DNA of 64,000 nt from Norana najaformis (taxonomy: Eukaryota > Annelida > Clitellata > Crassiclitellata > Hormogastridae): contig OZ029915.1 of the NCBI GenBank assembly GCA_964023275.1, forward strand, positions 12,902,712 to 12,966,711, written 5' to 3'. The notes under the pieces were generated by a model. The model ran no database searches. It was not told the DNA's origin and saw only the letters and a list, made by a program, of their open reading frames with translations. Positions 23,236 to 63,603 of this stretch are shown piece by piece; position 1 is the first letter of the stretch, and each line of letters starts with the position of its first letter. The position numbers were made by a program, and so were the translations under genes.

Positions 23236-26200
23236 CTAAGAATGAACCGAGACTGCTGAAACAATTTCATAATTGTCATCTCCTTTTTTCTTCCTGAATG
23301 CCGCCTCTCTATTACGGGGCATCTCCGAAGTTGGCATATTTCACTTTCATGTTCATAAATCGCACTGGCTTCCTGTCCACATAAGAATCAAGTAAAAAGT
23401 TTGGTTATCGTGTGCAACTGGTGAACTGATTACGTTGCACTGTTTTGCTTGTTCCCCAATTTCTTATTTCCATTGGACAGCGTGGGATCTTAGCTGTGGT
23501 TGACCTCACGAGTCTTCCCTTGCCTTAATTACGCTGAAAGAACTGAAACCATGTTTCAAATATTTATGCTTTTATGCTCATGAGTACGCAATATTGTTAT
23601 TGTTAAGTCTTATTTAAACGACTAAACATACACTGTTGGACATTGGCAATTTTTAGCAGTAGTAAAATGCTTTCAAAGTTGAGTAACAGCGTTCACATTT
23701 AGAGCTTCCAAGTCGTGGTATTTGGAACTTAAAATAATAAAGCATGAAAGTCTTAAGTTAACAACCATCCTTATTCGTCTTTACTTGTAGAAATATGTGC
23801 TAATGTTTGTGATTTCCTTAGCGGACTGACCAAGCTTGAAAGCTTCTGCTTACACCATGGTTTCGAATCAACAATGCTTAAATAAGATAGGAGCACACGT
23901 TTACACTAGTGTTTTTCTGTAAACAGAAACAATGGAAACGTTGTCTTCCAAATTTGGATTTGGTTGACATCGTTATTTGTCGGGCCAATGGTAAGTCAAT
24001 CGAGTTCGATTGCTGGAAATATCAACTGCGTAATTGTTGCAAGGGGCAGTAGGTTACCTAAAAACTTCCAGATAGCGAAACATTGGCATCTGTTAATGTA
24101 TCATTTACCGTGCGAAGTAGCCTGCGCTTCTTCGCAATAAGGCATCCAAGCTTTCCTCCGCACGTAAGAATAAAGAAATGATTGTATAAGAGGATTAGCT
24201 ACTACAGTGGACAGCTGTTACATCTTATGCTTGGAGCAGTGACTTTGTGCTATCTAGGCGACGTCGCTGAAGCCACTTTCACCGATGAAGACTGAATAAG
24301 TTGGCATTTGCTGTGTACCAAAGTCAGACAATCCGTTTCTTTCCGATGCTGTCGCAGTATTTTGAGAATTCGTTTCATTTGCTTGTTGCCTTCTTGTCGA
24401 AGTTATTGCAAAATTGATTGTCTTGTATTCCGGGTGTTTCTGATTTAGAACGGAAAATCTAAAAGGATATTCATGATGTTACGGTACAATGTTCAATTGC
24501 ATTGATACAAATTACGCAATTAGTTACACGACCGGCAGATATTTAGAACCGTGTTTTGCAAGGTTGGATCAACCAAGAAACGTTGAATTAGAGAATGACA
24601 CGCAGAGCTTTGGTTGGCTTTTTGCTATAAGACATCGATTTGGTTGAAATGGGATACTTTGGACTTGATGAATTGGTTGGACGACATATATTGATCTTGC
24701 AACTTGCGTTATTAGGCGTGTTAATTAACAGTGAACAATGTTTTATGTGAACAATTGCCTTAGACCAGCCTCAAAGACCGAATTTGGCTACGATGTCGAG
24801 GTAAAAGCAATGGGCTAATAAGATAACGCTACATAATGCCAAGATATACCTTCGTAAGCATATGATTCCTGCGCAAAAAATTGCCAGGCAAACTGCCAGT
24901 GTAAGTCCACCAATGGAGACCATAGCTAAAACTAAACAAAATTGTAATTGTAATTGTAATTTGAGATTTATAAAGCGCCTCTTAGAGGTTAAACTCAACA
25001 GAGGTGCTTCCGACCCGAAAAAGTAAAATCACTGTTGAACAGCACAGTCTTCAGGCGCCTGCGGAACACTGAGAGGGGGAGAGAAAGGAGCTCAAGTGGC
25101 AACGTAGGCAAAGCTTCTGGACTGGGCTGCAGCGGTACGCATGCGAGGGACAAACAGGAGATCTTGAGTGGCCGAGCGAAGGTTGCTACGGCCCGGCAAC
25201 GAGGAGACCAAAGTGCAGAAGTCAATGAGGTAAAGGGGAGCAGAGCCAAGAACACAATTACGCATGAGGGGAGAGGATCTTAAAGTGGACACGCTGCTGG
25301 ACGGGGAGCCAGTGAAGAGTGTTACGAATATAAGACGAGATGTGGCCATACTTTGGAATGCCCCCTATGAGACGAGCAGCAGAGTTGAGCACAGATTGTA
25401 GCTTAGCAGTGTTGGCAAGCGATAGGCTGGTAAAGATGGCGTTCCCAAAGTCAACCCTGGTGCAAATGAGGGCATGGACCAGCGTGGAGATAGCGTGGAA
25501 GGAAAGAGTACGGCGAATGGTACGGAGCTGACGAAGATGATAAATCAAATGTCATGAATTAAATGTATTTCTTCCTCAATAGCTGGGTCGATAAAGCATA
25601 CAACTGAAAACAAGACAGTGAAAGAGTGGATTAAGAAGGTAGGCTGTTATTTATCCTATAAACTTAAAACAACCAGGGTAAAGGCAACTCAACGAATGAT
25701 TGGAATTCACACTTTATTGTGTCCTCAGCTCCCATTTTCTTCCTCCTTGCTATCATTTGTCGCCAAATGTTCAGACAATGTGATCAGTTTGAATTTAACA
25801 AGTTCAGTGGAAATGAAGAAGCGGTATGCTAAACAAAAGGAACAACTATTATCTTTTGAACAATGCTAAGTAACCTACTTTGTCCGTCACTCCAAGACTC
25901 CGCTTTGATTGACTCGGGTTCTGATACAGGACCATGTGCTGACAACCCTAAAAAAGAAATGCGGTGTTTCATCAATTAAGTGCCCAGTTTCTTTAATTAG
26001 TTGTCTCATGTCACCTATAATTATAGACGCATAAGAGCTTTATAAGCGGGAAAGTACATCGGGTGGTTTTGTCTCTGCAGACCTTTGAATAGTCTTTCCA
26101 TGGCAGAAATACTATAGGCTATTTAGTTTATTTAGTTTCTTAGTAATCGACGTACATATTAACGGCTTATGTACGTTTATGATACTAGTTGTTCAGATAC

Positions 26201-28716
26201 TGCTATTATTTAGATCTTGACTTCTAACCCTGGGAGCAGTTTCCAAAAACGCCGATCCAATTTCCCTCCTGGCAGACGAGATGCCATGTTTTACGACTAG
26301 CATAACAGCCAATCACAATCGTATCTTCACTTCTCTTCAGCCAAGCATCTTCTGGCGGAATGAGGTCGGAACAACCAATAGCTACAAAGATTAGAATATG
26401 CAGAAGGCATTTCCAATTTGTATTTTTATGGTTAACTACCATAGAAAGAATGTAGTAGCTTAAAGTCTGCAATCTGCTTAGAAGGAGATTTTAAAGATAT
26501 CCGTGGTAGCGGTGGTGGTAGTAGTTATGGTGGTGGTGATGATGACGATGATGAACATAAGCATGGTATGGATGATGAACATAAGCATGGTATGGATGAG
26601 TGATTTTATTCCGGCTCAAAAAGCACGACATTTTAAAATAGTGTATCCGCAGTGATGTTTAGCTATCAGAATGACTATCGTACCATCTACTGTGATTGAT
26701 CTAACAGATGGAATAAAACAATGTGAATTTACATTCAATGATTAACATGAATCGCTTCCCATCGCCAGTGTTTTCATCATCAACGACATTATTGAAAATT
26801 ATGTCGACTTCATTTCCTCTTGATATACACAATTGTTTTGTCTCATGTTCGCCGTCTACGCAGATGGAAACGTTTCTTTTGGCTGCCTTATCCACGATGA
26901 CTCCATAATTATTGCACGACTGTTTCCTTTGTCCTCGTATGCCGTCTTCAGTTGATGCAGTGAAATCTAGGAGACTTGTACGGATTCTTTGTCCAGCGGG
27001 TGCCTCAATAATCCACGGCTGAGTTTTGGTTCCACAAATTCTCGTTGAAACAGATGAACCGATTATATGGATTGGATCCGTTGAAGCGATCAATATACAC
27101 GCACGATCTTCGTCTGCAACTGAATGATTGCTTTCAGGGTAAAATGTTATAGAAACTTTAATGCTAAAACGTGTACTCTGCTAATGGTGCCTCCACTTGC
27201 AGCTGAAGATATGCATTGTGAATAAAAACTCTTTTAGATTTACATGTATAAGGCAAATTGGCACTTGTAGCGTGATTTGTGTGTTTAACTATAGACTGAA
27301 GTGATGTTCTAGTGTCTGGTGTACAAATTTCTCTGTCACTAGCGCTTTATAGCGGACTCCGCCATAAAATTGGTACATCGACTTACGCTGTACTTACAGC
27401 GACGATAAGAAATTATACTGGTCTCCCACTCTCTTATCCGAGGCTACATAATTGATGTCTTCATGTTTTATATCAAAGAGACCTCTACGGATTGGCTGAA
27501 GAGATTGTTCCTGTCCCCCTTACGTAGTCTCGGTGTATAATTAGTGCCCAATTTCTAGAAGGTTCCACAGATCTACACTCAATGTGTTTTTTTCATTTCG
27601 GTTTGATATCGCCACTTCATATTCATCTGGGTGTAAGACTAGTTTTTAGCATTCCGCACTCCCAATTGGTCATCTGGGTTCTATTTCTTTGTTTCAGAGA
27701 ATGTTTTGATGATTTTAGGACTTATAATGAGTGGTCTGTTTAATCTAAAGATGGATGGCAATTAAACTTAAGTGATGCAGCTACAAACGTAGCTCGCACT
27801 AGTAAGCAGCTCTAATAAGCACTGAAATTTACCGTTCACGCATTGATAAGTGACTTGCAGATACGCAGTGAGGCCAGGAAAGCAGGGCTTTATATTGTTG
27901 GCTGATATTTCGGAAAGACGAATATCGCACTCAGGCAATCCAGAACATTTTCTATGCAGTAGATTCAACACGTCCGATGAACAACCAAGATAACGAGGGT
28001 CTTCGCCGACGACGGCTCTGTGCGCCTCTACTTCTTCCGCCGTTATACAGCGACCGATACTCATTCGTCCATAGGTGGCGCTTTTTATTAGCAGTACCTC
28101 ATTCTTTGGGCAGCGGGGCTGAAAGGGCTCTGACATGCAGTAGTCTTCGGTCACCGCTTTAGATCAATTTAACAAAATATAAATTTTAAATTAAAGAGAA
28201 ATGTCATCATATAAATCAAAGCTGAAAACACTATAACAGAATGGAAATACCAAATTCAGAGAATAGCGAAATCAGAAAGCAATTTTTATAGGCCTATTTT
28301 GTTTCCTTTACGCACCGCATGCAATTATTAACAATCGACAATATGCTTGTTTGCGATAGGCCTATGTAATGACACGAACCCAATTCACTGTCATTACTGG
28401 CTTTGTAACTCAAATGTAGCAAAAGGCCTATAGGCTGTAATAGGCCAGAACTAATAGCTAACGATTTACGGGGGAATACATCTGCTCTTATAAAAATCAA
28501 GCACTTAAATATTCGAGCAAAAACATTAATATGTAAAAAAACAACAGCCTGTTCAAAATTAGGATATTTGAAAGTAGTTTGTAAGCAGACGCAAAGGCAA
28601 TTCTTTAATAAAATCGAACGCCTACCAGGCTTATTAGTTCCATCCTGTGCGAGAACTACCGAGAAAAGCATCCATGCTAGAACTGCATTCTTCGTATTTC
28701 GAGCATAAATATCCAT
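23236..28716 (-). CDS. LCSR-A: lectin-CUB-sushi transmembrane receptor (inverted copy)
   Basis: A predicted type I surface receptor of about 390 residues. Exons on the minus strand: signal peptide 28716-28626, SUEL/Gal_Lectin-like 28156-27833, CUB-like 27113-26733, sushi-like 26381-26229, acidic stalk 25947-25879, transmembrane 24931-24850 and putative tail 23308-23236. Phases are 1-1-1-1-1-2, as in its five relatives. The lectin exon shows the SATYGRM and KPCFPGLTAYLQVTY motifs expected for SUEL-type lectins. The helix is LAMVSIGGLTLAVCLAIFCA, followed by LRR. The tail exon, with FRKKKGDDNYEIV and a stop, is much shorter than in other copies and was chosen only by splice phase and its basic-then-tyrosine layout, so it is the least certain part. 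An L2-like LINE fills the intron before the transmembrane exon. The gene is divergent from LCSR-B. Confidence 0.82.
24940..25550 (-). mobile_element. L2/CR1-like LINE 3' fragment inside LCSR-A
   Basis: Minus-strand reading gives the C-terminal part of a CR1/L2-type reverse transcriptase (YHLRQLRTIRRTLSF, VHALICTRVDFGNAIF, LNSAARLIGG, LHWLPVQQRVHFKIL), then a short 3' UTR with ataaagcgcctc and an (ATTACA)n tail. It is 5'-truncated at about 25550. It is sense to LCSR-A, and its tail ends about ten bases before the transmembrane-exon acceptor at 24932. Confidence 0.85.
26505..26600. repeat. GGT/GAT low-complexity tract with a 23-24 bp direct repeat
   Basis: A ggtggtggtagt-type tract passes into two adjacent copies of gatgatgaacataagcatgg, within the LCSR-A intron between the CUB-like and sushi-like exons. 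Confidence 0.8.
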
Positions 28717-31424: not shown

Positions 31425-31443
31425 TTTTGAGACGGTCCCTGAC
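31425..31443 (+). promoter_or_regulatory. Shared upstream motif of LCSR-B
   Basis: TTTTGAGACGGTCCCTGAC lies 293 bases upstream of the chosen LCSR-B start. It is the best match to the consensus TTTTGAGAYGGTCCCTGAC formed from five gene copies. Confidence 0.6.
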
Positions 31444-31736: not shown

Positions 31737-34700
31737 ATGGATTTCAGACTAACTTTATCTATTTTTGTGCTATTGACCTGTGCAGTTGACTTAGGCTTAT
31801 GTCTGCCTCGGGATAAAGATGAAGAAACAGGTACGAATTTCTGAATATTGACACTATAGACACGCAAAAGAGATAATTTTATCGCTTCCTCGATAATAGC
31901 CTTTGTTGCAAAAACATGGAAGTTATCAATTTACCACATTTTCAACGAATTTGATTGTTTCAGTTTCAATTTGTTTCTCTGAGAGAATATAGATGCGTGT
32001 AGCCAATTAGAAAATATTGCAGCATTTCAGCAATATTAAACCTGGTGTCATTCGCCCATATCTTTGACCTATAATATGACATCTCGAATATCTATTGAAA
32101 TTAATTTGCTTTTAATATATCATAATATGTCTAGTTACACTAGAAATAAGAATCATTGGTGACAATTTTTAAAACAGCAAAACATTAAATCTGAAACGAA
32201 ACGCGCAAAATTATTGTAATTGATAGAAAGTGAAAACAGTGGCCGGATTTTGTGTTTTCTACTTAAAACCATCAAGGACATTTTAAAAGGGTTGATTTTA
32301 TTTTTAAACTCGTAAAATAAATTTTATTTTTATATAGAGAAAGCAGAACAAATTACTTTTAAAATAGCCTACATAGTAGGAGCAAAACTATTTGTCCGAT
32401 TTCTATTTGATAGTTCAAGCCACAAAGAAAAGTGTGTCTCATAAAGTTACCATCGAAAATTAAGAATTTTAAAATGATTTGTCATTTATGCAAAAACGCA
32501 AAGAACTCGATATAAAAGCTGAATGACCTTTGATTAATCGCTGCGTCGTTCAGTGCAAGAACTCTGAAACTCAAGAACTTTTCCCAAACTGTAGACATTC
32601 GAGAGAATTTTACAATTTCTATGCTGTTCTCTGTATAGAAACTCGTAAAAGTTGGTCCACTTGCTCAGAATACATACTATTCAGATGAGCAGATATGTAG
32701 ATAACGGACACAGAGGGTGAAGATGGGGCACTCCTGGCTCCTAAATTTTTTATTATAGTCTTTAGGAGTGTGATATCTTTGTCAGCCGGGTGTTCTGGGC
32801 TAATGGGCGACGTCGCCAGACTAAAATATGTATCTAATAATCTATTAACATAAATTATACAAAGACTGCGAATAATATCCATCAAATTAGAAAGTATTGG
32901 CGCTAGTTTGTACTCGCTTGCCTGCTTTGTGCTCCTGTTATCATTCACTCTCAAACAATACTAGTTTTTCAAATTAGGGTCCAATTAACTGAATAGACAT
33001 TATTGAATGTTTATGTTAAGCTGCACCTGAGTACTGTATGCTGGAGGTTTTTCAACCTCGATGTCTAAAGAATGAAGTTATACTTATGACAAGTGCCACC
33101 TACGGACGCATGCGCATTGGTCGATGCATAACAGCTGAGGAAATCGATACATTTGGGTCTCGTTATCTTGGTTGTTCTGCCAATGTACTGCCAATACTGG
33201 ATCGCAAATGCTCTGGAAGAGCCGAATGTGATGTTCGTCTGTCAGATATCTCAGTTGAGAATATCAAGCCCTGTGTTGCTGGCCTAACCGTTTACCTAGA
33301 AGCAAGCTACAAATGTATCACCAGTAAGTTTTATATGATGTGATCACAAGTTTGCAACTACGCGTCGTACCTCGCGCTACTCATTGCATACATCGTCTGT
33401 TTGTTCAACTTTTAATTTATCAATATGCTTCGATTGGTAACGCTTCATTTTGGCAACCTGCATTATGGAACAAACCAGATTTTATTCTTAATATCAACCA
33501 GCATTAAAGAACTTAATAGTAATCGCTAGTTTCAAAATGCTACTCGGTTCATTGCAGTTATAAGGATGATGAAGCGCTTTAACGCTGTACTTACTAATAG
33601 AAACAAAACGCAACCGTACGCAAAAATAAATGATCGATTCAAATAACTGTGAAGCTACGTTTAAATCTAACGTAGTTTCAGAGGATTCTAAACTATATTG
33701 ATAAGCTCGTTTCTTAGGCAGTCACTCTCTATCTGCAAATGTCAATAAGCAGCATTCGTCAACTTTGCTGGCTGCCATCTGAGTGGAGTAATTAGTTCAA
33801 AATTTCAGAATAGACTGAATGGCTTTGCAGCCCTACGAATTGTAATACTGCTAACATTCAAATGGGCAGCGGTGGTGATGGATCGTACCCAATAAGTTCA
33901 TTCAAAAATGAGCAGGAACGAGGTCATATGGTCCCTGTGGGAAAACGTGCACAGTTACACTTACATTTAACACCATATCACCTCTGCAACTGCTGCGTTC
34001 TTGCATACTGACTTGTACAAAAATTAGCTCCAGGAGAGTTGTGAGATCCCGTAAGCTATTTCTGATCCTCTGTCCTCTGTATATATAGTCAACCGCCTCG
34101 AAAGGCCGATTCTTTATCGACATTTATGTCGTTTGACAAGACCCTCTACTTCATTTTCTGTCTCGTTCCCTGAAGAACATGTATCGGGGCATCAAAATTA
34201 GATTAAGACTTTGAGCGTAATCGCAGTAAAGAAATATAAACAAGAAACGTAAAACATGAATAAGCAGTGCCTTAATTTAAATGCGCCTTAAACCCTCAAA
34301 TAATTTTGCTGTTTAATTTTTAAGCCGATCTTTAAATCTGGGAGCAATTTTGAGTTATGAAGCACAATATAAATTAAAATCAAGTGTTCTTATTTCACAA
34401 AAAATAATGTTATGTAGTTGCAGATGAAGGGCGATCGTGCACTATCTCTGCATCTACAAGTCCAATCCATATAATCACCTCATCCGCCTCCAAAAAAAGT
34501 TGCGGAACAAAATCTCAACCATGGCACGCGGTTGCACCTGGAGGTCAGAAAATCAAAATAAGTCTTTTTCAAATCGCAACTTCGACTCTTGGTCAGACGG
34601 ATAAGCCAAGCAAGCAATCGTGCGTCAACCATGGCTTTATCATGGACAAGACGGGAAAAGCAAACACGTCAATTTGCGGCGACGGTGGAATGAAAAGAAA

Positions 34701-37700
34701 AAGTGACTTGTATCTGTCAACAGGAAATGCTGTGGAAATATTCACGAGTCAAGCAGAGGAGCAAGAATCCGTTCCTGGACAAATTATACTGAGACTTGAA
34801 AGTAAAAGCAATTTGTTTTATAATGATTAATTATCACCGGTAAAACACGCGATTAAGTGCTAATCCGAAACTTCACAATCTGTTAACTTTTCATCACTCT
34901 TATTGTGGCAACGCCTTTTCGATTTATAACCGACTTAATTCCTTTAAAAATGCTAGCTGCGAATTTTAAAAAAAATATTACCAGATGGCATAAGAACAGG
35001 CTTTATGAAAGTAGGTGACCAATCACTGTAACATCTAATCATAGTTTTCATTGCAATATGTTAATTAATTGAGTCATTAGTTGAATCTTTCTTTCCAGCC
35101 GTTGGCTGTTCGGACATCATACCACCAGAAAACGCTTGGCTGAAGAGGAACGACAACACGATTGTAATTGGCTGCTATTCTAATCGTCAAACATGGCACC
35201 TTAACTGCCAAGAGACAAAGTGGTCTGGAGTTTTTGGGAATTGCTCACAAGGTCAGATTAACTAATAAATACCATTGCAACCCTAATTAATTAAACCAGA
35301 CGTGACGACGTGAGTTAATAAGTAGGCTAGTTTTAGATGTCTTTCCTAAAGACTCTAAGACTCGGTCCTTGTTCCTCTATCGCTTACCAGCTTTTAAAAC
35401 TAACACGATTGTCGCTAAATCGCATACCACAAAAGCGTTCTACTGTTCATATCTTCGACTTAGAGTCTTATTATTACACTTCGCAAGGAGCCAACAGGGA
35501 TGACATAAATTAACTGTGGCGTTTTATTTGCTTTATGGACATTGTCTATTTAAGAGGAGGGTTAATTAATGCGTTGCATATTATAGAATTTCCATTTCTA
35601 CTGACAGTAACTGTATTCAGAAGCCTAGTTTGTCGAGCTTACTTTGCATAAAACTCCTCGTTGAAAAGTCATGTAAAACTGTTATTTTATCACATTATTA
35701 GTAAGAAATAGTATCCTAGTGTTATCCATACTCATGTGCGCTGTTGGCTATGAGCATCAAAGCACTAAATGGTATCCCGGTTTTCTAATAGTGATAAGCA
35801 TGTTCGTGTAATATCTTGTACAAAAAGCTTCATGCCAATTTAAACAGTTGATATGTTTATACAATTACAATGATGTCTTAATAAATGAATCGATTTTGTA
35901 TACAAATTCATGTATTACGCAGTTTATCAAGAGCTCCATTTGTAGTATCCTGCACACATCGGTCATTAATAAGAACATTCTGCTTTTACTAATATGAAAT
36001 ATCATATTCTTGATACTTGAATCCTCCTTTCCACTGCGCAGACTAAGATACAACTATGTCGATTAATTTTACAGACAGCAACGAGGCTTCTGATCCGGAT
36101 GAAAAATCACAACTTCTGACAGACACATGGAGTGATGAACAAAGTAGGTTAATTGTCTGGCTACATAAATTGAACTTTTATAAGTTTATCTTAGACTAAA
36201 ACATCTTTCTTTATATAGTTAAAAGTTATATAAATACAGGAAATGGTTCGTTTATTAAGCCGCAAAAGACAAATTCTAAGATTCGAAAAATTTGTATTGT
36301 CAGTTATTAATGATGGAGACACACTAGGTTAGGGGCAGACAGTTTGTTTATAAGCCTCCATTACCAACCATCGGCTTCATTGGCTATTATATGAGGGCAT
36401 GGTCGATTGAAGCGTGCCTACGTAACCTGCTCCTCTCTGCCTCAGTTACACTGTTTTCTCCAGTGCAGCACAACAACGTCTTATAACCTTGGTTAATTAC
36501 AAGTCTAGGATTACATGCCGTTCGTTTGATAGTTTGCTCATCTAGGTTATTGTGCATTAAAGTTAAGAAAACCAAACCAACAACACTTCTTACACACGAC
36601 TGTCTTACGGAGTTAACTTTTAAAGAGACTGATCATTCTCAGATTCATCAGTTACTTATTAAAAAACACCACAGGAACACCAAGACATCTCCAAGAAGTC
36701 AAAAGTGCACAAAAAGAGGCTCAATGTCTCGCTTAGCAAGGCCCTATAACAGTTTAACAATCCATCAAGCTAACTCCTAGAGCAGCCATAGTATAAAGTG
36801 CTAGCGACTTCACTTTCTTAGTCTCGGCATATTAATGTGGGTGGCCCGTCCTCTCCCTCGCCGCCTAATCTCCCCACCGACAGCGTTTGGTCATTATAGT
36901 CATTTTCAGCTGATTTTGCTCAAGGTGCAATTGGAACATAGAGTATTTAACCTCGAAACATACGAACCCTTGACCTCTGACTCAACAGTTCAGCACGCTT
37001 TCCATACAACTCTAGCGCATAATAAAAATTGCAATGGCGAATAAACTTCGATAATCAGAACATTTATACAGCGCATTTTGAAGCATCGCAAAGGCGTTCT
37101 CTTTTCATGAACATATGTGGCAAACAGGATATGACACAATAGGAACGAATACGCACTCAGTTTCAGAAAGCATGTTTGGCAGCATTTGCATCCACTTGGC
37201 ATCGACATTTATATGGTATTTAATTTTGATTAATCGGTCATTTTTTGCATTATGTTCATCTTTATTTCTATCTATTGCCATATGAAATTTTATTTCCGGC
37301 TAGAGTCGCATCGATTGTAATGCCCAGGGGTTTCTCTGTATTTCAGTTTTAGCTACGGTTTCCATCGGTGGTTTTACACTCCTGATTTGCTTGACAATTC
37401 TTTGCATCGGAATTGTTTGTTTACGAAGGTTTGTTACAAAATCTCTATTTATACTTCATCTTTTTAGGAAATATAGATTATTTTTTTACACTCTTGCACG
37501 GAGAGATATTGACTTTGCACAGCGCAAAATATCAAAATCCAATTTATAAACTGGAGACAACACTATGGTCTATACTGCGATCGCCAGTTACCTTATAAAG
37601 CGTTTTAAGGCATTATGGTATATACAACAAGGCGAATGGAAGTTTGAACGTCTGTGAAGATATAGCCATAGCACCAGATTCCTCCCGTTTCTGGATCCGG

Positions 37701-39123: not shown

Positions 39124-39142
39124 TTTTGAGATGATCCCCGAC
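39124..39142 (+). promoter_or_regulatory. Shared upstream motif of LCSR-C (most diverged copy)
   Basis: TTTTGAGATGATCCCCGAC lies 247 bases before the LCSR-C start codon and differs from the consensus at two positions. Confidence 0.5.
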
Positions 39143-47808: not shown

Positions 47809-50800
47809 ATGATTCTGATAAATATCCATTTTCTTTCGAGTTTAATATTACTTTCTACGCGCTTGGCTGCTGTTCTTTGTGAATTTCTGATGAATGGACC
47901 AGGTACGTCATAGCATCTAAACTACAGCCTATTACACGTTTCTATACTTCATCCCAACAGTATATTCTGTACAATATCGCAACAGATTCTGTCACAGACG
48001 TAAATTTAGTGTTTTCAGATTAGTTTGTGCTCCCCTGAGCTTTCGCATTGCAGAATGAGAGCGCATTTGATGATAACTTACATTTGTCATTTTGGCAAGC
48101 CTACAGTTTTAAATAGACCACAGTGTTGACTACCCATATCGACGTTAGGGTCTATTTAAGTTCCCTAAGCCTAATTTAAATGTATGTGATTGTCGACTTC
48201 AAATTTATGTAATTTATTACTTTGCTAAAGTGATGTTACCGTATTTATGGCATAATATAATTGGTGTTTAACCCTCATCAGAAGAGTACTGCATGTCAGA
48301 GCATTTCCAGCCTCGATGTCCGAAGAATGAAGTTATCATAATGAGAAGCGCCGTATTCGGACGCATGCGCATTGGACGGTGTGTAAAAGCTGAAGAAGTG
48401 GCTGCACACAAAAAAATAGTCGGAGATGATCCTCAGTATTTTGGATGCTCAGAAGACGTCTTAGAAATAATGGACCAAAAATGTTCTGGACAGTCGGAGT
48501 GCGATGTTCGTCTATCCGATATCTCAGACAAGGATATCCAACCTTGCTTTCCTGGTCTAACGGTTTACCTCGAAGTCAGCTATGAATGCAAAAACAGTAA
48601 GTAGCATATATTTGTAGATAAGCGTCATGAGTTAGAGGTCATTTGAGTCATCAGTTTGTCATGTTCTGCATCGAAAGCTAATTGTTTTAGGGTTTATCAT
48701 AAACTGGTATTTCAGCAGCGTATGTTTATGCGACACCTAAGCACTGCCACTGCAAAACGTTCCCTGCCGTCATGCCATCGAAGGTTCACAAATTCACAGT
48801 TGTAGATCCTGCCTAATGCTGAAGCTTAATGTTGACACACAGCCAGCGCCGTCGACGAGTATCTTTGAAATGGCGCATCATAAAAATTAAATAGCTTTGC
48901 ATTGCATTGTACATCTCAACACAAGCACTGCATACGAACCTCGTGAAGTAGATGTTAAAGGGCGGCCATCCGGTGGTTTTCTCGCCCTCTTCATGTAGGT
49001 CATAGAAACCTTCACCGCCCCCGTAATGCCCCCAGCCGTAGTTCGGAAGCCGCTAGGGTTAATACCGAGGTTTGATGCGCCGATCGACCAGGTACTAGCG
49101 ACACTGGATGATTCTGGTAGTAGATGTGTCGTGTAAGTGGACCTAGACTACCCAGACCATCTGCATGAAAGATAGAGCGATTGACCTCTAGCGCCAGAGG
49201 TCAAGTAAGATGTTTCTGTGAGTAAAAGGATTTTAATCCAGAATCTACAAGAAAAACTGTGTTATGTTTGATGTAAAATAAGGCCACGTTATCTCGTGCC
49301 AAGATTATAGGTAGCTTTTAGGTTATTGATGTTACTCTAGGAGATTACAGACTGACACTCCATCATCCCATGCACAGCAGCACAGTGGGTCCCGTGTATA
49401 GTCTGCAAAGGGCCCCAGAGTGATTAATCCGGCCATAGGCATTTTAAGAACTGGTCATCACAATTGAACACGTAACATACAAGTTTAATTTTAACATAAA
49501 TTTGTTATAATAAAGCAACATTGTATAGTTACAACAGCAAAATTGGACTATAAACTTAAAGGATAAAGAACGCACACAACACCGAATACCGTTACCGATA
49601 TCGCCATATAGAGAAAAACCGAAACCGATACTGAAGAAATAGATATAAAAATACCGGAAACCGATAAGACTTAAAAACCGATACCGATCTATTCTAAACG
49701 CCATCTACGATTATTTTATTCTCTTTTTAACAAAAAAATATTTCTTGAAGATTTCGCATTCTAAAACAAACATACTTTATGCAATGCGCACAGTTGCAGA
49801 CGAAGAGCGTTCGTGTACTTTGGAGGCTTCAACGAATCCAGTTCATATAATCGGTTCAACTGTTTCAAAGATAATCTGTGGAAGCAAAACTCAGCCATGG
49901 ATTGTAGAGGCACCCACTGGACAAAGAATTCGTACAAGTCTTCTAGATTTCACTGCATCGACTGAAGACAATATGAGAGAGCAAAGGAAGCGATCGTGCA
50001 GTAATTACGGGGTCATCGTGGATAAGGCAGACAAAAGGAATGTTTCCATTTGTGGTGGTGGCGGATTTAGAGAAAAGGAACTGCATATGTCAAGAGGAAA
50101 TGAAATTAATATCATTTTCAACAGCGCCAACAAAGAGGAAAACACTGGCACTTTAGGCAGACGATTTCTCCTTGCTGTTACAAGTGAGATTACGTGTTGT
50201 TTTTATAAAAGTATTGAGGTTGATTTTTCGATATAATTCTTTAATATTATTATGATAATTTAGTTTCTAAGACTAATTTAATCAAAATAAAATAGCAGTT
50301 TTGCAACACAAATGTAACGCGACATAGCCTATACTAGCGCCTCCAGCGACTGTTGCAACCATGTGCAGTGATCCTAGCTTGGCCTTCAAGTAAGTACTCG
50401 TCAACGCAATGCATTATGATGGTCATCTAAATGTTGAGGCAACGCAATTACTCTTTAGAATTTTACTCCGAATAGAATTACAGCTTTAAAAGGAGTGCCA
50501 TAGTTTGGGCAATTCCCTATAGAAAACGAGACTCCCGAGTTTACTTTAAGTAACACATGTGTAGTGATTTAAATTCTTATAGGGTGACAACTCTGTTGCT
50601 ATTAAAAATGCGCGTGATTATAACTTTCATGTTTTGCCAATGTTTATAATATATTCGGCTCTTAAGTCTAAAACGTTATGTTGGATACTTTAGTGAGATA
50701 GCACAAATCATTAAAATTTGCATCTGTAAATTTTAACCTAACACATAGCACACTGAAAATGCATGCTGCAATTGCTAATCTTTGTAGGCGTTGGTTGTTC

Positions 50801-53800
50801 CGACCTCATTCCACCAGAGGATGCTTGGCTGAAGAGAAGCGAAGACACGATTGTGATTGGCTGTTATGCTAGTCGCAAAACATGGCATCTCGTCTGCCAG
50901 GAGGGAAATTGGATCGGCGTTTTTGGAAACTGCTCTCAAGGTAAGATTTGAACAACAACAAATAACAGAAACATTTTTCTATGGGTGCTATGATTCGAAA
51001 ACAAATGTTCAGTTTCTAACTGATATACCAGAACTTGAAATCTGACGCAGAAGTGAAAGGGAAACGCATTAACTGTTATTTGTTGTTACATTCTGCGCGA
51101 ATTAAGATGTGGCTTTAACATTTCTTCTTCTTCTTTTCAACCGTCCTCGGTACGAGGGTTGGTCGCATTGTAGACGATTCTTTTCCATCCACTCCTATCC
51201 TCGGTTCCTCTCAGCAACTTCTCTGTGGCTATACCGGACCATTCGCTGATGTTGTCCATCCACCTCTTCCTTGGTCTTCCTCTTGCTCTTGCTCCCGGCA
51301 CTGTTCCTTGCATGATCTCCTTCTCCAAGCAATCACCCTGTTTCCTCATTATGTGTCCGAAGTACGACATCTTTCTTCTTTTGATTGATTCAAGTGGACT
51401 CCTTTCCACACCAGCCGTCTCCAGCACCCACTCATTTGTTCTTTTTTCTGTCCATGATATTCTAAGTATTTTTCGTATACACTTCATTTCAAATGCCCTA
51501 ATTCTATCCTCATCCCTCTTCTTGATTGTCCAGCTCTCACATCCGTACATCATTACTGGCCAAATCAGCGTCTTCATTAATTTTAACTTTGTGTGTACTT
51601 TGATGTTATGGCACTTCCACAATTTCATCAGTTCTGCTCCCGTTCCCTGTCCTCTTTTGCAATTCTTACTCTTATCTCCCTACTACACTCAGCATCTTCT
51701 GTCACGAGCGATCCCAAGTATGCGAACGCGTCCACTTGTTCTATCCTGATATCTTGCACCTTGATGTTACATTGTGCACCTGCCATTGCCATGCATTTTG
51801 TTTTCCCCATATTAACATTTAACATTTGGCAAGGCATATATACCATAACTTAATCTAACTTGCTCAATTTATTTAAATACTAAGATTGAAGCATAACAAG
51901 CTATGTGGGTCAAATTGTCTGCTTGATCAGCAAAGTAGCTGAACTTTTCAAACGCATTGTGACTCAGAAGGCAATTGCACATAAGATACGGCTTTGAGAA
52001 TGCAATTGCAGTTTATTTGTTATTTGATGACATGCATATTAGTAATACAGCCAGCAAAGAAGTTCACTTTAACAATTTAGTTCATCTATTGCTTAGGAAT
52101 TATAGCACCTGATCCAGTCCAAGAATTAGAGCAGATGAAAACAGAATCTTGGAGCGATGGACAAGGTACGTAATTGTAATTTGAGATCTATAAAGCGCCT
52201 CTAAGAGGATAAAAACTCAACAGAGGTGCTTCCGACCCGAAGGAGTAAAATCACTGTTAAACAGTACAGTCTTCAGACGCCTGCGGAACACTGAGAGGGG
52301 GAGAGAAAGGAGGTCAAGTCGCAATTCTCTCGGGAGACGATTCCAGCAAGTGGGACCAAGTAGGCGAGGCTTCTGGACTGGGCAGTAGCGGTGCGCATTC
52401 GAGGGACAAACAGGAGATCCTGAGTGGCTGGGCGAAGGGTGCTACGGCCCGGCAACGAGGAGACCAAAGTGCAGAAGTCAATGAGGTAAAGGGGAGCAGA
52501 GCCAAGAACACAATTACGCATGAGGGAGAGGATCTTAAAGTGGACACGCTGCTGGAAGAGTGTCACGAATATAAGACGAGATGTGGCCATATTTTGGAAT
52601 GCCCCCAATGAGACGAGCAGCAGAGTTGAGCACAGATTGCAGCTTATCAGTGTTGGCTAGCGATAGGCCGGTAAAGATGACGTTACCAAAGTCAACCCTA
52701 GTGCAAAAGAGGGCATGGACCAGAGTGGAGATAGCGTTGAAGGAAAGAGTATGACGAATGGTGTGGAGCTGACGAAGATGGTAAAAACAAGAGCGAGAGA
52801 CGCTGTTAACATGAGCAGACGGGGTAAGCTCCTGATCCAACACAACCCCGAGATCCCGGACCGTAGTAGAGAAGGAGATATCCGGAAATCTCTGGCGTAA
52901 GGAGGAGAGATAGGTTACGTAGGTTACGTAATGAACGCATGTACAGTAGGTCTATGCATGTATGTATTTGGACGTTAAGATTATCTCAACGACATAAAAT
53001 ACATATAAGCTTAGGTCTTATTGCAATGACATCGTTCAAATTATGTTTATCTGACGTCTAAATGAGTGCTTTCCTTAGAAATAATGTTGCAAACTTTCTA
53101 AAATTAATCGTCAAAGTTCTTTAAATGTCAGTGAAACTGTTTCAAAACATGAACAGAGAAAAAGCATTTCGAATTTATATGTCCACTCGAAGCTGTATGA
53201 CACGACGCATCATCCTCAAACTAGATTAGTACTTGGATATGTAGTCGTTCCTATATAAAAGTACCCAAACAAAAATTGTCCTGTCATTTGATTGTTGTGG
53301 CAGTGTTTCCGCCTCAGTCGAAAGATTCTTTGACTTTAAGATCACATTTCAGAGCTTATGCAAAGCTTTAAGGCTACTTTTGTACACTTGATTGTATTTT
53401 TATACATAGAGTGATATACTTGTTTTACTTAATTCTTTTAGTTTTGGCAATGGTTTCTATCGGTGGACTTACATTAGCTGTTTGCCTAGCAATTCTATGC
53501 GCAGCAGTCATTTGTTTACGAAGGTATGGTTTCAAAGCTATTTTTGTTTTAAAGTCATCACATGAGTCAAACACATTTTTGCTTTAATGTCACCATAACA
53601 ATCGGTTCTACTTTCAACATGAAACAACATTCATTTAGACGTATTCAGTTACTATTACACAAAGCCCAAGAAACAGCAGAATCAACTACAAATGAATTGA
53701 AGTCGTTTGTTTGGGCAATGTCACATTGTGCAAGAATAGTTTAACAGTAGTTTGGAACGACAACAATAGGACTGACGTTACTGAGTGACTTAATTAAAAA

Positions 53801-54438
53801 ATTAAGTCAGCGTAGGTGACATACTCCTGGAATGTTTAGGTTTACCTATCTGTGTGCTCATATACTTTCTTGTGCCGTGCCTTACAAATTAGTATTGTAC
53901 ATCAAAACAGTTTCTTTGCAGCCAATCCTTTAAAAGTAGGATTCTAACGTTTTTGTTTTTAAGAGACATTTGAGACCTCATCTATTATTTACTAACAGTT
54001 AAAATTTTCTGTTTACTGTCTAACTCTGAATCAGCATTTGATTTTGTACAGCATCCATCTATCATTTATTGTTGGGCTCTTGTCCGTACCGACATTTGAC
54101 ATTTTAAAGCACCCTTGAAGTAGCTTGCCGCTGACGATGCTGCATAATGTGTTATGATTACACTTACAATTACAATTGCAACCAGTGGCCTTGCCTTGTG
54201 GCTATATGGCTTTATGACAAATACTTTTAGAGTTTCAGCTAGAAAGAAGAAACAAGAGTACACGACCATCAATTACACCATTAGTTCCACAAGAAGGCAA
54301 CAAATGGATGAAATGAATCCAACAAATGCCACTGTACCAGAATTCATCAGAAACGGATTGCCTGACTTTGGTACACAACAACAGATGCCAACTTACTCGG
54401 TCTACGTTGGAGAAAATGGCTTAAATAATGTCGCTTAG
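47809..54438 (+). CDS. LCSR-D: lectin-CUB-sushi transmembrane receptor
   Basis: Predicted 434 residues. Exons: signal peptide 47809-47902 (hydrophobic IHFLSSLILLSTRLAAVL), lectin-like 48282-48596, CUB-like 49800-50183, sushi-like 50788-50940, stalk 52097-52165, transmembrane 53442-53523, tail 54231-54438. The lectin exon has SAVFGRMRIGRC, with F in place of the usual Y of the YGR motif. The sushi-like module is identical in protein sequence to that of LCSR-A from GCSDL to GNCSQ. The tail starts ARKKKQEYTTINYTISS and ends with PTYSVYVGENGLNNVA, giving four tyrosines, the most of any copy. An AATAAA at 54592 lies about 155 bases after the stop. Introns hold an RTE-like LINE (51124-51850) and an L2-like LINE (from 52170), the latter starting next to the stalk donor. 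Confidence 0.9.
48940..49052 (-). other. Unassigned exon-like segment, antisense in an LCSR-D intron
   Basis: The minus strand reads LPNYGWGHYGGGEGFYDLHE followed by EGEKTTGWPPFNIYFT without a stop. It is bordered by an acceptor-like accctag and a donor-like gttcgt. It is more GC-rich than its surroundings. I do not recognise it; it could be a captured exon or a mobile-element fragment. Confidence 0.3.
51124..51850 (-). mobile_element. RTE-like LINE 3' fragment
   Basis: The minus strand encodes the region after the reverse-transcriptase palm: KTKCMAMAG, FAYLGSLVTEDAECSREI, YGCESWTIKKRDEDRIRAFE, ILRISWTEKRTNEWVL and ARGRPRKRWMDNISEW. It is interrupted by a frameshift near 51628 and ends in an (AAG)n tail at 51124-51136. 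It is 5'-truncated and antisense to LCSR-D. Confidence 0.85.
52170..52915 (-). mobile_element. L2/CR1-like LINE 3' fragment beside the LCSR-D stalk donor
   Basis: The minus strand encodes RDLGVVLDQELTPSAHVN, then RSCFYHLRQLHTIRHTLSF and VHALFCTRVDFGNVIF, then the CR1/L2 C-terminus and the ataaagcgcctc 3' UTR. It is closely similar to the fragment at 24.9-25.5 kb. Its tail touches the donor gtacgt at 52166. It is antisense to the gene. Confidence 0.87.
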
Positions 54439-56026: not shown

Positions 56027-56044
56027 ATGGGCTGCAAAAGAAAC

Positions 56045-59000
56045 ATGACGTTCAAAATTACAGATTATATAAATGCGACACTGATATGGCTACATCTGCA
56101 GCCAGGCTTGTCTTCGTACGTTGAAGCCGAAAAAGAACCAGGTAGCTTTTGCCTAATCTAAACTAATCTAGTCTAACCTGACGACTTCTAAGGAGTTACT
56201 CGTTAAATATTATCCATACGAGCCAACATTAGATCTAACCCACATTTGACGAGCAACTAACATGTTGATGATTCTCTTTTAATACCATTCATGACTATTC
56301 TGAGGTAAGCTTGTCGCATAGAATTAAGCCTGAGAGTTTTATTTTAGATCTTATTTTAATGACTGTTGTGAGGTTTTCAAATCGCTTCAAGTTGTCTATT
56401 ACTTTCTTAAATGTGACAATGCTGAATGTATCTGACAGCGATTCCATGTTTCGGCCTAACAGATTGCACATGTCTTCGGCATGCACATAGGCTACTTATA
56501 TTCCTGCAATGCTAACTAGTAGGCCTGCACTGCTAGCTCATGTATTTCAACCACCTGTTTAAAGCAAGCGGAAAACACCCCATTATTGAGACCCCATCAG
56601 CGGGTCTGTATTCATGTCTATCTCTGCATATATGTGACCATCTGTCCTCTACCGGTCATTGGACTATATTTAATTTATTATCACTTGAAATTTGAAGCTG
56701 CAATGGAAGAATACTGTATGTCGGAACCTTTTCAACCTCGATGTCTCAAGAATGACGTCTTACTAATGAAAAGCGCCACCTATGGTCGGATGCGTGTCGG
56801 TCGATGTGTAACGGCAGAAGAAGTCGATGCTCATCGGTTGCTGTCCGGCGATGATCCTCGTTTCCTTGGCTGTTCTGCCGATGTTTTGTCTCTGTTGGAC
56901 CGGAAATGCTCTGGAACTGCACAATGTGATATTCGATTGTCCGATATCGCAGCTGAAAATATCAAGCCTTGTTATCCCGGCCTAACTGTGTACCTTGAAG
57001 TCAGCTACGATTGTATCAGCAGTAAGTTCTAATATAAAAGCAGCAGATTTAATATTAAAGCCCTCCACAAATCCGTTAATCTATGAAAACTTATTAAATC
57101 GACATTAACTTTAAATTAGCCTGCTTATTGCTGCATTATGTATGCACTGTGTTTTATAAATTCGGGACATATAGAAAATTATATAAATCAATTATTTATC
57201 AATGAATTTATAACATTTTCTAGATTTAGTTAGCCAAAAGGATTTCTTCTTCTTTATGTTCTCTGCCCCTCGGCAGGTTCGTATGTCCAATGACGCCATC
57301 TTTCTCTGTTCTGTGCCTCTCTCTTCAGTCCACTGTATCCCTCCTCTGTCATCATCCAGTCCAGTAGCATTGCTCTTGGTCTTCCACGTGTTCTTTTCCC
57401 CTCCATTCTTCCTTCGATGACGTCTTTTAATAGGGTGTCCCCTCTCAGGATGTGGCCGATCCATTTTCTCTGTCGTCCGCGTATAGTGCCTATCAAGGAT
57501 CTTTTTTCCTCTACCAGCTGCAATATTTCTTCATTAGTTCTTCGCTCCTTCCAGCTGACTCTCTCCATTTTACGCCAAATCCACATCTCGAAGGCCTCTA
57601 GTCTTTTAATGTCCTCCTTCCGCATTGTCCACGTCTCTGAGCCATACTGGACGACACTCCATACCAATGTTTTAACCATTCTCTTTTTTAGCTTCCTGTT
57701 TAGACTGCCTCTGAGTAGCTCCCTCCTTTTATAAAATGCATCCTTTCCCATAGCTATCCTTCTTTTTATTTCCACTTGGCACCTTGCATCGTCCGTAACC
57801 ATACTTCCCAGATAGCAGAACTTCTCCACCCTTTCCAATTCTTCTCCATTTAACGTGATCTTTACATCCTTTTCATTTCCTTTGCTTACCCTCATGACCT
57901 TTGTTTTCTTTACATTTATTTTCATGTCGTAGTTCAATGATATCCTGTTTAATCGGTCCATCGTCCTTTGTAGGCCTTCTTGGCTGCCTGCTATCATCGC
58001 TTGATCATCTGCAAATCTCAGTGCTTTCACCATTTCCCCCCCCCACTTTTATCCCCTCATCCATCTCTTCCATCGTCTCTCTGATGATTTCCTCTATATA
58101 GATGTTGAATAGAACCGGTGACAGTGGGCATCCTTGCCTCACTCCCCTACCGATTTTTCCCGGTTCTGAGAATTCTCCATCGATTCTTATCTTCATTCTT
58201 TGTCCCATGTATAGATTTCCTATCAATCTTCTTTCTCTCCATTCCACTCCCATTCGTCTCAGTATCTTCATAAGAAAGATTAATGACTTCAGAGAAAAAT
58301 TTCAGAGCCAGAATTTGCAGAGTCTTCGGAATTTTACACTTTTCAGCAGCGGAGCTCACGGTACTGTAAATGTTATTGGATAACGAACGCTCATACTTCA
58401 TTATATCAACACTTCAATTCACCATTCAAGAGCCAAAAAATTACTCCTATAGACTACAAAATATATGGAGCTTTATGCTGGAAAACTGCTGAACATCTCG
58501 TTCGAGCCTGTGTTGCGGCAAGAGCACGTCAATTGCTTGTGACTTTGTTTCCTGGTCTAAGAAATAAAAATATTATATAAGTTATTAAACTTAAATAGTT
58601 ATGATACATGTTTTGGGATCCCAATTGTTTAAACACCGTATAGCTACTAGCACATATCTCTTGAACATTTTATCTTTAAGAGTTATTTGCACTTCCTTTG
58701 TACCTTAGACCGAAACTTACCGCAGTCATCTTGCTATTAAATCTGCCAAATGGTTCGCCTATTATGTAAGGTAATGGCTTACTCTCTTCATTATAATTTA
58801 ATTTTGAACATCTTTCGATGAACTTATTAAGTTTATTTTAAAATTAAAACACTTTAGTTGCAGACGAAGGGCGTTCGTGTATGTTGATCGCCTCAACGGA
58901 TCCAATCCATATAATCGGTTCATCTGTTTCAACGAGAATTTGTGGAACCAAAACTCAGCCCTGGGTTGTTGAGGCACCCGCTGGACAAAGAATTCGTATA

Positions 59001-61750
59001 AGTTTCCTAGATTTCATTGCATCGACTGAAGACGACAAGACAGCGCAAAGAAAACAGTCTTGCGCTGCTTATGGTGTCATCGTGGATAAGGCAGCCAAAA
59101 GGAATGTTTCTATTTGCGGAGGCGGCGAACGTAGAGCAAAAGACTTGCATGTATCAAGAGGAAATGAAATCAACTTAATTTTCAGCAATAAAAACGAAGA
59201 AGATCTTAGCGATGGCAAACGTTTTCTGCTGACTGTTTCAAGTTAGAGCAAATTTATAACTTTAATGCTTTCTGTCAAAATATAGGACTGGGTTGTTATG
59301 TTTTAAAGTAAGTCGTGATAATTCTAGATATTCATAATTTATCCGACAAACCTATATAAAATAGATCCTTTTAAAAGTGTTTATGAACAAAAAAGGTATA
59401 CTTTTTGAATAGTTTTAGCACTGAAAAGACGAATCATGCATATGTATAATATTACTAAACTACTGCTAAAATTTCAGTTGTAGATACTGATTGTATTATA
59501 GTCAGAACAAATAGATGCATTCCTGTTAACCGTTTCGCAGCTGTTGGTTGTTCGGATATCATTCCACCAGAAGATGCTTGGCTGAGGAGAAATGTTGATG
59601 CCATTGTGATCGGCTGCTATACGAGTCGCCAAACCTGGCATCTTAATTGTGAAGAAGGAAATTGGATTGGAGTTTTTGGAAACTGTTCACAAGGAGGTTA
59701 GATTCGTATGAATAGATCGGCATCATTCAAGTCGGACTGCATTAATTTCATTCATTGTCTTAGAAGATTACTTGGTAAAGACAATTTGAGAAACGAAATC
59801 ACACATTCGCGCTCTGATTGAAGTATTGCAGCTTGATTTAATGCAATACAATCAATCGCATATGTAGCGCTACTTTTCAACCACATTGGTTATTTACCAC
59901 ATGTCCTCAAGCCCAAGAATTCGAATAAATCCACCTCATTTGTCCAGCAGTTAGCAAAACAAAGAGTCAAGTTTAAAATTTCCGCCAGAGCAGAAAGATA
60001 TTTCAAAACTTCTGTCGCATTATCCCCCTAGAGAACTTAGCTATAGATGAGTACACTAACCGTACATCTGGGAAGATGGGTTGTTGGGAAAATTAGGCTA
60101 CGAGAGAGAACTGGCAACCCGCACTCATAAACCGAGGCTAAGAAATGAAAGCTTCATACCTATACCTGCCTCTCAGGGCGAGCTTAGGAAATGCTGTCCG
60201 TTTCGTTTTGTGACCTAGACACAAAGATAAACATTGTGGTTAAGCTTAGTATTTTATTTATTTATTTATTTAGACCATGCGAATACAACTCCATCCATGT
60301 ACATGGTGCAGGACGATTCAGATGATGGCCTGCATCTAACTCAAATAGCAACCGATTCGTCACTACTAAAGCTTCGCTGAAATGTTGAAATGTACTGTTT
60401 CAGGTATTGCAGCGCATTACCCCGTCGCCGAAATCGAACTGATTAACCGAGAATCTTGGAGCAACAGCCAAGGTAGGTTCGTTTGAACTGCGCAGCATCA
60501 TCCAATACCAGGTCGGCTGTCAACACGTTCTCCTAGATAATTAATATTACGTCATTAATATTCCTCGTGGTTTTCTGATATGCTGTGTTGCTACTCACTG
60601 ACTGTGACTCTTTGGCTGTCTGTTTTTTCATATCTCTCTCTACTCCATATTCTCCACTTTATTTACAGTATGTGGGTCTTGCGCCCTCCAGAATTTGAAG
60701 CTAAACCAATAGGTAATGTAACTAATAGTACTTGATTCTTTACAAAGGTAAGAAATGAGTGATTCAGACTACTGTATGAGTACTTCTAAAAGTCTGTCAG
60801 ATGTGGTCTAAATTCAGTTTGTCATAGATTCTGAGTGGAGCTCATTGTGTAAGAGAGGGCATTGAGAGAATTAATGATGTAGTCATTTATCGCTTATTTT
60901 GGCGCTACAGAAATTATCCTGATAGGTTTGTATGTGGTTGTTTTTGACTTATAGTTTTAGCCATCGTTTCCATTGGCTTACTCACAATGGGAGTATGCTT
61001 AGCAATTGCATGCATGGGAGCTATACTTTTTCGAAGGTAAGGTACTCAAACACGTGTGCAATTATGTAGTCTAATATAAAGATGTCTATTTCGATACTAG
61101 CATATCAATGTAGCCTGGGTTCACATCATCTGAAAATTTAATTATCTACTATAGTCACTTTACATTCATTAAAAAAGTTATCCATGTATTTGTTTATATA
61201 GCGTCTCTTGAATACTTTTTAAATGCGTTGATTACAGATTGTCTTCCGTCATTTTCATATTGCTAAGGGTGTTTTGCACAAAATCTAATTATATAGTTTT
61301 GAAATTAATCAAAGCTATCAAAGAGTTTCTCAAGCGCAGAGTACTGTGGCACCTTTTCTTTTATCCCTTTATTACAACCTCATGATTTCAACTGGTGATC
61401 CTTTGCGGTTTGCATTGAAGCTTGCAGCTTGATCTCATAATGAATAATAAATTATATCCTGCATATACAGCAGAATATAGTGCGCATTGTTTAATTTCTT
61501 GATGTTACAGTGTATTGATGTCATCCTAACAAAACGCGATTCAACTTGTTTTAGATTTTCTTTTTGGAGCAAGAAAAAACCCGATTTTTCAACGATTAAT
61601 TTACCGATTAGTTCAAGAAAAATTCGACAGATTGAGCAAAGGATTTCTCCCATTGACTTGATTGTCAACGACTTGCAAGCTCCGACTGCTGAGCAGGGAC
61701 CAACGTATTCAGTCTTCATTGGAGCCACTGACCTCACCAGCGTTGAATAG
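56045..61750 (+). CDS. LCSR-E: lectin-CUB-sushi transmembrane receptor
   Basis: Predicted 433 residues from ATG 56045, or 439 from an in-frame ATG at 56027. The later start gives a signal exon of 97 bases, close to the 91-94 of the relatives. Exons: 56045-56141, lectin-like 56698-57021, CUB-like 58864-59241, sushi-like 59541-59696 (one codon longer, donor moved to GGAG|gttaga), stalk 60404-60472, transmembrane 60955-61036, tail 61555-61750. The lectin has [12 protein letters not shown] and [15 protein letters not shown]. The helix is [20 protein letters not shown]. The membrane-proximal tail tyrosines of LCSR-D are replaced ([15 protein letters not shown]), but the distal PTYSVFIG is kept. 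The signal exon looks unlike the others, and no upstream motif was found. An RTE-like LINE sits in the intron before the CUB-like exon. Confidence 0.88.
57232..58275 (-). mobile_element. RTE-like LINE, 5'-truncated, reverse-transcriptase part
   Basis: The minus strand encodes [20 protein letters not shown], the catalytic [12 protein letters not shown] block, [46 protein letters not shown] and a [11 protein letters not shown] ending, with a GAA-rich tail at 57244-57251. One length change in a run of nine Gs (about 58036-58044) breaks the frame just before the catalytic block; otherwise the 259-codon frame is open, so the insertion is fairly young. It belongs to the same broad group as the fragment at 51.1-51.8 kb. 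Confidence 0.88.
60669..60712 (+). other. Possible alternative stop-containing exon in LCSR-E
   Basis: Bounded by a good acceptor (tttatttacag) and donor (AG|gtaatg), these 44 bases continue the frame after the stalk for fourteen codons ([14 protein letters not shown]) and then meet a TAG whose last base is the last base of the segment. Inclusion would yield a secreted ectodomain without the helix. It could also be chance; no other copy was seen to have it. Confidence 0.25.
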
Positions 61751-63212: not shown

Positions 63213-63231
63213 TTTTGAGATGGTCCCTGAC
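63213..63231 (+). promoter_or_regulatory. Shared upstream motif of LCSR-F
   Basis: TTTTGAGATGGTCCCTGAC lies 278 bases before the LCSR-F start codon. Confidence 0.6.
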
Positions 63232-63509
63232 ACACTTTAGTTCAAGGGAATGATCGCATAATGATCGCACAGCCAATGAATGCAGTGATTGATAATTCTT
63301 CTTCTCTAAGGCGGATTAGTACGCCACAATGCCTGCTATATTAACTCCTGAACGCCAACTGTTTTCATCTGACTCAGTCTTGTTTGTTTCAAAACTGAAT
63401 TTACAAAATTACATAAATTTTGAATTTATGACGTTTGCATTAGGACGATGTAAACTTGGTTATTCGCTTGTGTTTTCTTGTGCTGATTTGCTTGCAACTG
63501 TTGAATAAA

Positions 63510-63603
63510 ATGCAGAATTTTAAATCAAATTATATAGTAATCGCTATCATTACGAGTCTGATGGCTTGCGAGTTTTTGTTAACTTCCGGAAACAAAGAGA
63601 AAG
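63510..63603 (+). CDS. LCSR-F: first (signal-peptide) exon of a sixth receptor gene, cut by the window end
   Basis: The 94-base exon has exactly the length and ending phase of the signal exons of B, C and D and encodes MQNFKSNYIVIAIITSLMAC followed by EFLLTSGNKEK, a plausible signal peptide. The junction AAAG|gcaagt would be a GC-type donor in its best consensus context. The shared upstream motif lies at the expected distance. The remaining exons must lie beyond base 64000. Confidence 0.65.

Follow-up and report, generated by a model that had tools for sequence, protein, structure and literature searches.

The window analysed here, a stretch of 64,000 nucleotides from the annelid Norana najaformis, lies at C3:12902712-12966711 in a genome of 608 Mb in 17 contigs. 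Between positions 24254 and 63603 it contains five complete seven-exon genes (G1 to G5) and the first exon of a sixth (G6), and the exon order in each complete gene is signal peptide, SUEL lectin, CUB-like module, sushi-like module, stalk, helix and tail. Each gene is predicted to encode a small type I membrane receptor about 430-450 residues long; the gene models are as follows.

28716-24254, minus strand: G1, complete model, open from start to stop
28626..28716, minus: G1 exon 1, signal peptide
27833..28144, minus: G1 exon 2, SUEL lectin (PF02140 40.5 bits, cut-off 31.4)
26733..27119, minus: G1 exon 3, CUB-like (family identity through relatives)
26229..26381, minus: G1 exon 4, sushi-like (gene model and fold of the sushi model)
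25879..25947, minus: G1 exon 5, stalk
24850..24931, minus: G1 exon 6, transmembrane helix
24254..24458, minus: G1 exon 7, tail with YKTI and YSVF
31737-38398, plus strand: G2, complete model, open from start to stop
31737..31830, plus: G2 exon 1, signal peptide
33021..33323, plus: G2 exon 2, SUEL lectin (PF02140 34.5 bits; acceptor picked among candidates)
34418..34801, plus: G2 exon 3, CUB-like
35099..35251, plus: G2 exon 4, sushi-like
36075..36143, plus: G2 exon 5, acidic stalk (splice scan, conserved WSDEQ end)
37347..37428, plus: G2 exon 6, transmembrane helix
38161..38398, plus: G2 exon 7, tail with YNTL; PSFPVY in place of the usual distal tyrosine motif
39390-46965, plus strand: G3, complete model, open from start to stop
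39390..39483, plus: G3 exon 1, signal peptide
40560..40874, plus: G3 exon 2, SUEL lectin (PF02140 35.7 bits)
41122..41502, plus: G3 exon 3, CUB-like
42177..42329, plus: G3 exon 4, sushi-like
42768..42833, plus: G3 exon 5, acidic stalk (splice scan, conserved WNDEQ end)
43307..43388, plus: G3 exon 6, transmembrane helix
46710..46965, plus: G3 exon 7, tail with YRTL and YSIF
47809-54438, plus strand: G4, complete model, open from start to stop
47809..47902, plus: G4 exon 1, signal peptide
48282..48596, plus: G4 exon 2, SUEL lectin (PF02140 38.4 bits)
49794..50183, plus: G4 exon 3, CUB-like (query of the genome CUB search)
50788..50940, plus: G4 exon 4, sushi-like (AF2 pLDDT 87, fold match; query of the genome sushi search)
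52097..52165, plus: G4 exon 5, stalk
53442..53523, plus: G4 exon 6, transmembrane helix
54231..54438, plus: G4 exon 7, tail with YTTI and PTYSVY
56045-61750, plus strand: G5, complete model, open from start to stop
56045..56141, plus: G5 exon 1, signal peptide (weak prediction)
56710..57021, plus: G5 exon 2, SUEL lectin (PF02140 30.4 bits, cut-off 31.4; E 5.2e-7)
58858..59241, plus: G5 exon 3, CUB-like (Pfam CUB E 0.2, below cut-off)
59541..59696, plus: G5 exon 4, sushi-like
60404..60472, plus: G5 exon 5, stalk
60955..61036, plus: G5 exon 6, transmembrane helix
61555..61750, plus: G5 exon 7, tail; F in place of the proximal tyrosine (DFSTIN), distal YSVF retained
63510..63603, plus: G6 exon 1, signal peptide, GC donor (remainder beyond the window in L034)

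An earlier note on this DNA had described one exon plan common to six genes, with five complete copies open and spliceable; the plan was recovered in the five complete genes and the signal exon of the sixth, and all five models are open with matching phases. G1 is the one complete copy of the five that is inverted relative to G2-G5. The first six exons are joined in phase 1 throughout and helix to tail in phase 2, in agreement across all five genes; the note had described the ectodomain modules as phase 1-1 units. All 30 introns of the five models have GT-AG boundaries, which were chosen during model building, so that the exons are spliceable and splicing itself is a prediction. For the G2 and G3 stalk exons, placement relied on splice sites and the common W-[SN]-D-E-Q ending, not on blast. 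G6 continues into the next 10 kb of the contig (L034), in which an exon search found lectin, CUB, sushi, transmembrane and tail exons and no match to the stalk exon. No exon has been placed in 23236-24253, the opening of the region given in the note. In their lectin, CUB and sushi exons, the window copies share 45-98% of residues.

Several introns contain further features. The lectin-CUB intron of G5 holds retroelement reverse-transcriptase fragments (57257-58301, minus strand), one of whose two ORFs is just above the Pfam cut-off. A common repeat (92-94%) is present at 24991-25544 and 52213-52785, in the stalk-helix introns of G1 and G4; because its direction is the same although the two genes are opposed, it was probably inserted twice independently.

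The first module, which the note had called SUEL-lectin-like, is confirmed as such by Pfam: PF02140 matches four of the five window copies above 31.4 bits, and G5 reaches 30.4 bits (E 5.2e-7). In the PDB profile search, the lectin exon is best matched by latrophilins 3, 2 and 1. Eight aligned cysteines occur in all five window copies, and the YGR motif is present in 24 of 25 array lectin exons, with FGR in G4. When the sugar-contact columns are set by alignment of the lectin exon to latrophilin, the Glu after the first Cys, the Asp of DPC and the Lys of KYL are each found in none of the 25 exons; in L029 and L035, a Lys sits one residue ahead of the KYL Lys column. All three residues are sugar contacts in CSL3, and the Glu and Lys also in latrophilin-1 (PMC3269628). 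Since these contacts are absent from all 25 exons, classic rhamnose or galactose binding by the array lectins appears unlikely, and the label "lectin" needs to be used with care. The contacting Tyr and Gly are largely kept (24/25 and 22/25, respectively), and given this the array lectins might still bind some sugar.

The CUB-like module of the note was recovered mainly through relatives. Within the window, Pfam CUB (PF00431) matches only one copy of five, at E 0.2, but in the wider family it hits 7 of 18 members at E values of 0.1 or less (best 7.7e-4). A profile (A6) built from two array copies and 16 dispersed CUB sequences (all 18 except L008 and L040) matches cubilin in the PDB at E 1.3e-4 over the whole chain, with a best single-stretch i-Evalue of 1.1 and none passing alone. 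We take all nine PDB chains matched by this profile at E up to 1 to be CUB-bearing proteins. An AF2 model of the CUB exon from the five-copy alignment has a pLDDT of 32. Judged by the matches of its relatives, module two is probably a divergent CUB domain.

Evidence for the third module, described as sushi-like in the note, comes from structure rather than from sequence matches. Pfam Sushi (PF00084) was found in none of the five window copies and none of 16 wider members, neither set gave a sushi match against PDB sequences, and Foldseek's own ranking of the module's model returned no significant match and no sushi. However, the AF2 model of the G4 exon (pLDDT 87) aligns end to end with sushi domains, and the module has the four cysteines and the Trp before the last that belong to the sushi fold. 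On the model alignment and this cysteine pattern, module three is assigned as a short sushi domain. A loose regular expression located it in 14 of 20 fetched places, and one with stricter spacing matched none. In an alignment (A7) of these 14 sequences with L059 and G4, the invariance of the four cysteines and the last Trp is partly due to the choice of expression, which did not specify the residues G2, W13 and G43. In each of the 22 copies for which all three exons are available, a SUEL-fold head, a probable CUB domain and this short sushi domain are present.

Helices and tails were read in 10 of at least 70 genes, L034 and L037 only partly. None of the 10 transmembrane helices contains a charged residue, including one for adaptor pairing. 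Whole tails are 64-84 residues long; YxT[LI] lies near the membrane in nine of the ten, with the proximal tyrosine 7-12 residues into the tail as read, and a distal PTYS[VI][FY] is present in eight, in keeping with the short tyrosine tails reported in the note. No ITIM or ITAM consensus was seen in the ten tails, two of which were read in part. The conserved tyrosines may represent phosphotyrosine docking sites or clathrin-adaptor signals, both of which fit the motifs equally. A second copy of the G3 stalk exon with its downstream flank (42778-42966) lies at 44621-44805 (92%) within the helix-tail intron, and this copy has neither the start of the exon nor its acceptor.

The scale of six genes given in the note is too low. 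With the G4 CUB exon as query, at least 121 places in the genome match (150 of 190 candidates scored); at least 70 CUB exons, five of them in the window, lie at C3:11.72-13.64 Mb, and none of these 70 array matches contains a stop. The G4 sushi exon matches at least 150 places (150 of 231 candidates scored), 70 of them in the same interval, and every one of the 70 CUB exons of the array has one of these 70 sushi exons as its partner on its own strand. The locus is a tandem array that comprises at least 70 genes over 1.9 Mb (57 on the plus and 13 on the minus strand); the median spacing is 10 kb, and gaps reach 671 kb.

At least 80 further sushi-like exons are scattered over 16 of the 17 contigs. 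At least 42 of these 80 are preceded within 12 kb by a SUEL exon on their own strand, and at least 52 by a SUEL or CUB exon; among the matches listed, SUEL exons in the wrong order or on the wrong strand occur at none of the 80 within 12 kb and at three within 20 kb. The dispersed gene L059 (C7) has SUEL, CUB, third module and helix. In L058 (C16) and L060 (C9), SUEL was seen and CUB is known from the genome CUB search, and the third module was not found in the fetched stretch, a result that depends on the splice thresholds of the scan. In the CUB tree, 32 array-type sequences (29 array copies and three outliers) form one clade against 16 dispersed sequences, with a support of 0.94. The clade formed by its sequences inside a genome-wide family suggests that the array arose by local expansion of an older receptor plan, which may also exist in other animals. 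Further clusters of SUEL exons, some with two close together, are located at C2:2.0-2.8 Mb and 40.9-41.1 Mb and perhaps encode secreted lectins.

Selection on the three modules is purifying. Median dN/dS is 0.19 for lectin, 0.32 for CUB and 0.14 for sushi exons, no pair exceeds 1 in comparisons of 105, 152 and 201 pairs, and no codon under detectable positive selection was identified among 103, 128 and 51, respectively. These values argue against diversifying selection, as a weak negative because synonymous change is saturated in 195 of 300 lectin, 343 of 496 CUB and 123 of 325 sushi pairs. Left out of the calculations were L001-L011, L038-L053, L058-L060, matches under 85% of the query, and the duplicates L012, L019 and L031 (of L036, L035 and L037, respectively); the CUB set includes three relatives outside the array (L054-L056).

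The exons of one gene have partly separate histories, which are best explained by exchange between copies. Over 22 copies, with mean synonymous p-distances of 0.55-0.66, the Spearman correlation of divergence is 0.05 between lectin and CUB, 0.03 between lectin and sushi and 0.36 between CUB and sushi, values to which saturation may contribute. Conflicts between exon trees at a support of 0.9 number two for lectin-CUB, one for lectin-sushi and none for CUB-sushi. In nine genes at C3:11.72-12.12 Mb (L013-L017, L020, L025, L033 and L036), the sushi exon alone has become nearly uniform, almost as far as its splice sites: synonymous p-distance averages 0.12 for sushi, as against 0.62 for lectin and 0.50 for CUB exons, the sushi match ends within 20 bases of both exon edges in 31 of 36 pairs, and the introns are mostly unalignable. 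Exon-limited gene conversion is the simplest reading of this pattern. Codon constraint was considered as the cause of the low sushi divergence and rejected, because the sushi distance is 0.64 in 13 genes of the remaining array (lectin 0.68, CUB 0.69), which argues for conversion.

On balance, we lean towards the view that the SUEL-CUB-sushi array as a whole encodes recognition receptors with signalling or endocytic tails. The SUEL-CUB head would bind cell-surface or soluble ligands, more probably proteins or atypical glycans than rhamnose or galactose, and the YxT[LI] and PTYS[VI][FY] motifs would act as phosphotyrosine docking sites, as clathrin-adaptor (YxxPhi) sorting signals, or as both. 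Different copies could in this way deliver different ligands to one common inward response.

An immune or self/non-self role is plausible as the likeliest use of such a repertoire. The large clustered family, the mosaic exon histories and the conserved cytoplasmic tyrosines count in its favour, whereas the lack of positively selected codons with dN/dS well below 1, and of canonical ITIM/ITAM motifs and charged transmembrane residues in 10 copies, counts against it or is neutral. An arms race is unsupported, since there is no positively selected site and dN/dS medians are 0.14-0.32. We advance only tentatively the more specific picture of a germline-encoded self/non-self or microbe-recognition system, in which variable, membrane-distal lectin-CUB heads diverge and are exchanged between copies, a constant sushi domain next to the membrane is kept by conversion in part of the array, and one short tyrosine tail is used throughout.

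It is possible, if doubtful, that the genes instead serve housekeeping or development, for instance in uptake, in cell-cell adhesion or at gamete or tissue surfaces, as endocytic, scavenger or adhesion receptors whose tail tyrosines are YxxPhi sorting signals and not signalling sites. The closeness of the proximal tyrosine to the membrane, the ITIM/ITAM-free tails and the purifying selection on all three domains would suit such a role, and the dispersed genome-wide family of similar plan suggests an old general function; yet seventy clustered, diverged and exon-exchanging copies exceed the usual housekeeping need, and the second, distal tyrosine motif is also retained. A surface identity code used in cell-cell recognition during development or in chemical sensing, rather than in defence, seems unlikely: latrophilins are the top PDB matches of the lectin exon, and both EVA-1, a guidance receptor, and latrophilin, an adhesion GPCR, contain SUEL domains (PMC3269628), but none of the five window models contains a GPCR or guidance part. 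Pseudogenes or assembly duplication of one gene, the latter raised in the note, are very improbable, since near-identical pairs are few (L014/L017, 92% over 3 kb; L022/L035, dS 0.02 in the CUB exon), most copies are as far apart as the synonymous distances above indicate, the window genes share only part of their residues and are open and spliceable, all 70 array CUB exons are open, and dN/dS is well below 1.

Returning to recognition receptors, no description of a SUEL-CUB-sushi receptor array was found in the open-access literature searched, a scope outside which most subscription journals fall; the array is real and large and, within that scope, undescribed. The best-known clustered receptor repertoires use Ig, C-type lectin, LRR or NLR folds, and an array of 70 SUEL-CUB-sushi genes would be a further independent solution, whose pattern of conversion, differing from exon to exon, lends itself naturally to testing the evolution of constant as against variable portions of a receptor. 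The NK-type receptors KIR and LILR are likewise clustered, and are birth-and-death families with Ig folds and ITIM tails or charged transmembrane segments; the array, in contrast, has neither ITIM nor charged helix in the 10 copies read, and Pfam scans of the window lectin, CUB and sushi exons, not dedicated to Ig, listed no Ig family. Latrophilin and EVA-1-type single-pass receptors also place a SUEL domain on a membrane receptor, whereas the array receptors add CUB and sushi domains, have the Glu and Lys of the sugar site replaced, and are without the olfactomedin, GAIN and 7TM parts that latrophilin carries. Secreted rhamnose-binding lectins (CSL3) and Hydractinia rhamnospondin, which has thrombospondin repeats, have the SUEL fold, eight cysteines and YGR motif in common with the array, but each array gene has a single SUEL domain on a membrane receptor, with changed DPC and KYL motifs.

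The closest functional parallel in the literature searched is the Botryllus fester/FcoR system. As far as its available description goes, FcoR comprises type I receptors with a sushi domain, encoded at 53 loci as a multigene family, with an Ig and sushi ectodomain and long tails that have a core tyrosine motif YxxI/L/V and can carry ITIM or hemITAM (PMC12065747). Sushi domains, YxxI/L/V tails and multigene organisation are shared features, whereas the SUEL-CUB head is, to the extent of that description, peculiar to the array, whose tails are short.

Elsewhere in the window, positions 1-2368 are occupied by a tandem repeat with a period of 44 (53.8 copies, 97% matches) and several open frames. 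Exons of an ionotropic glutamate receptor, which is presumably AMPA-like, are located at 14161-17727 on the plus strand, with Lig_chan or Lig_chan-Glu_bd matched by Pfam in three of four ORFs. The sequence TAGGCCTA occurs 20 times on the two strands of the window (10 palindromic sites), compared with 1.6 occurrences expected from base composition.
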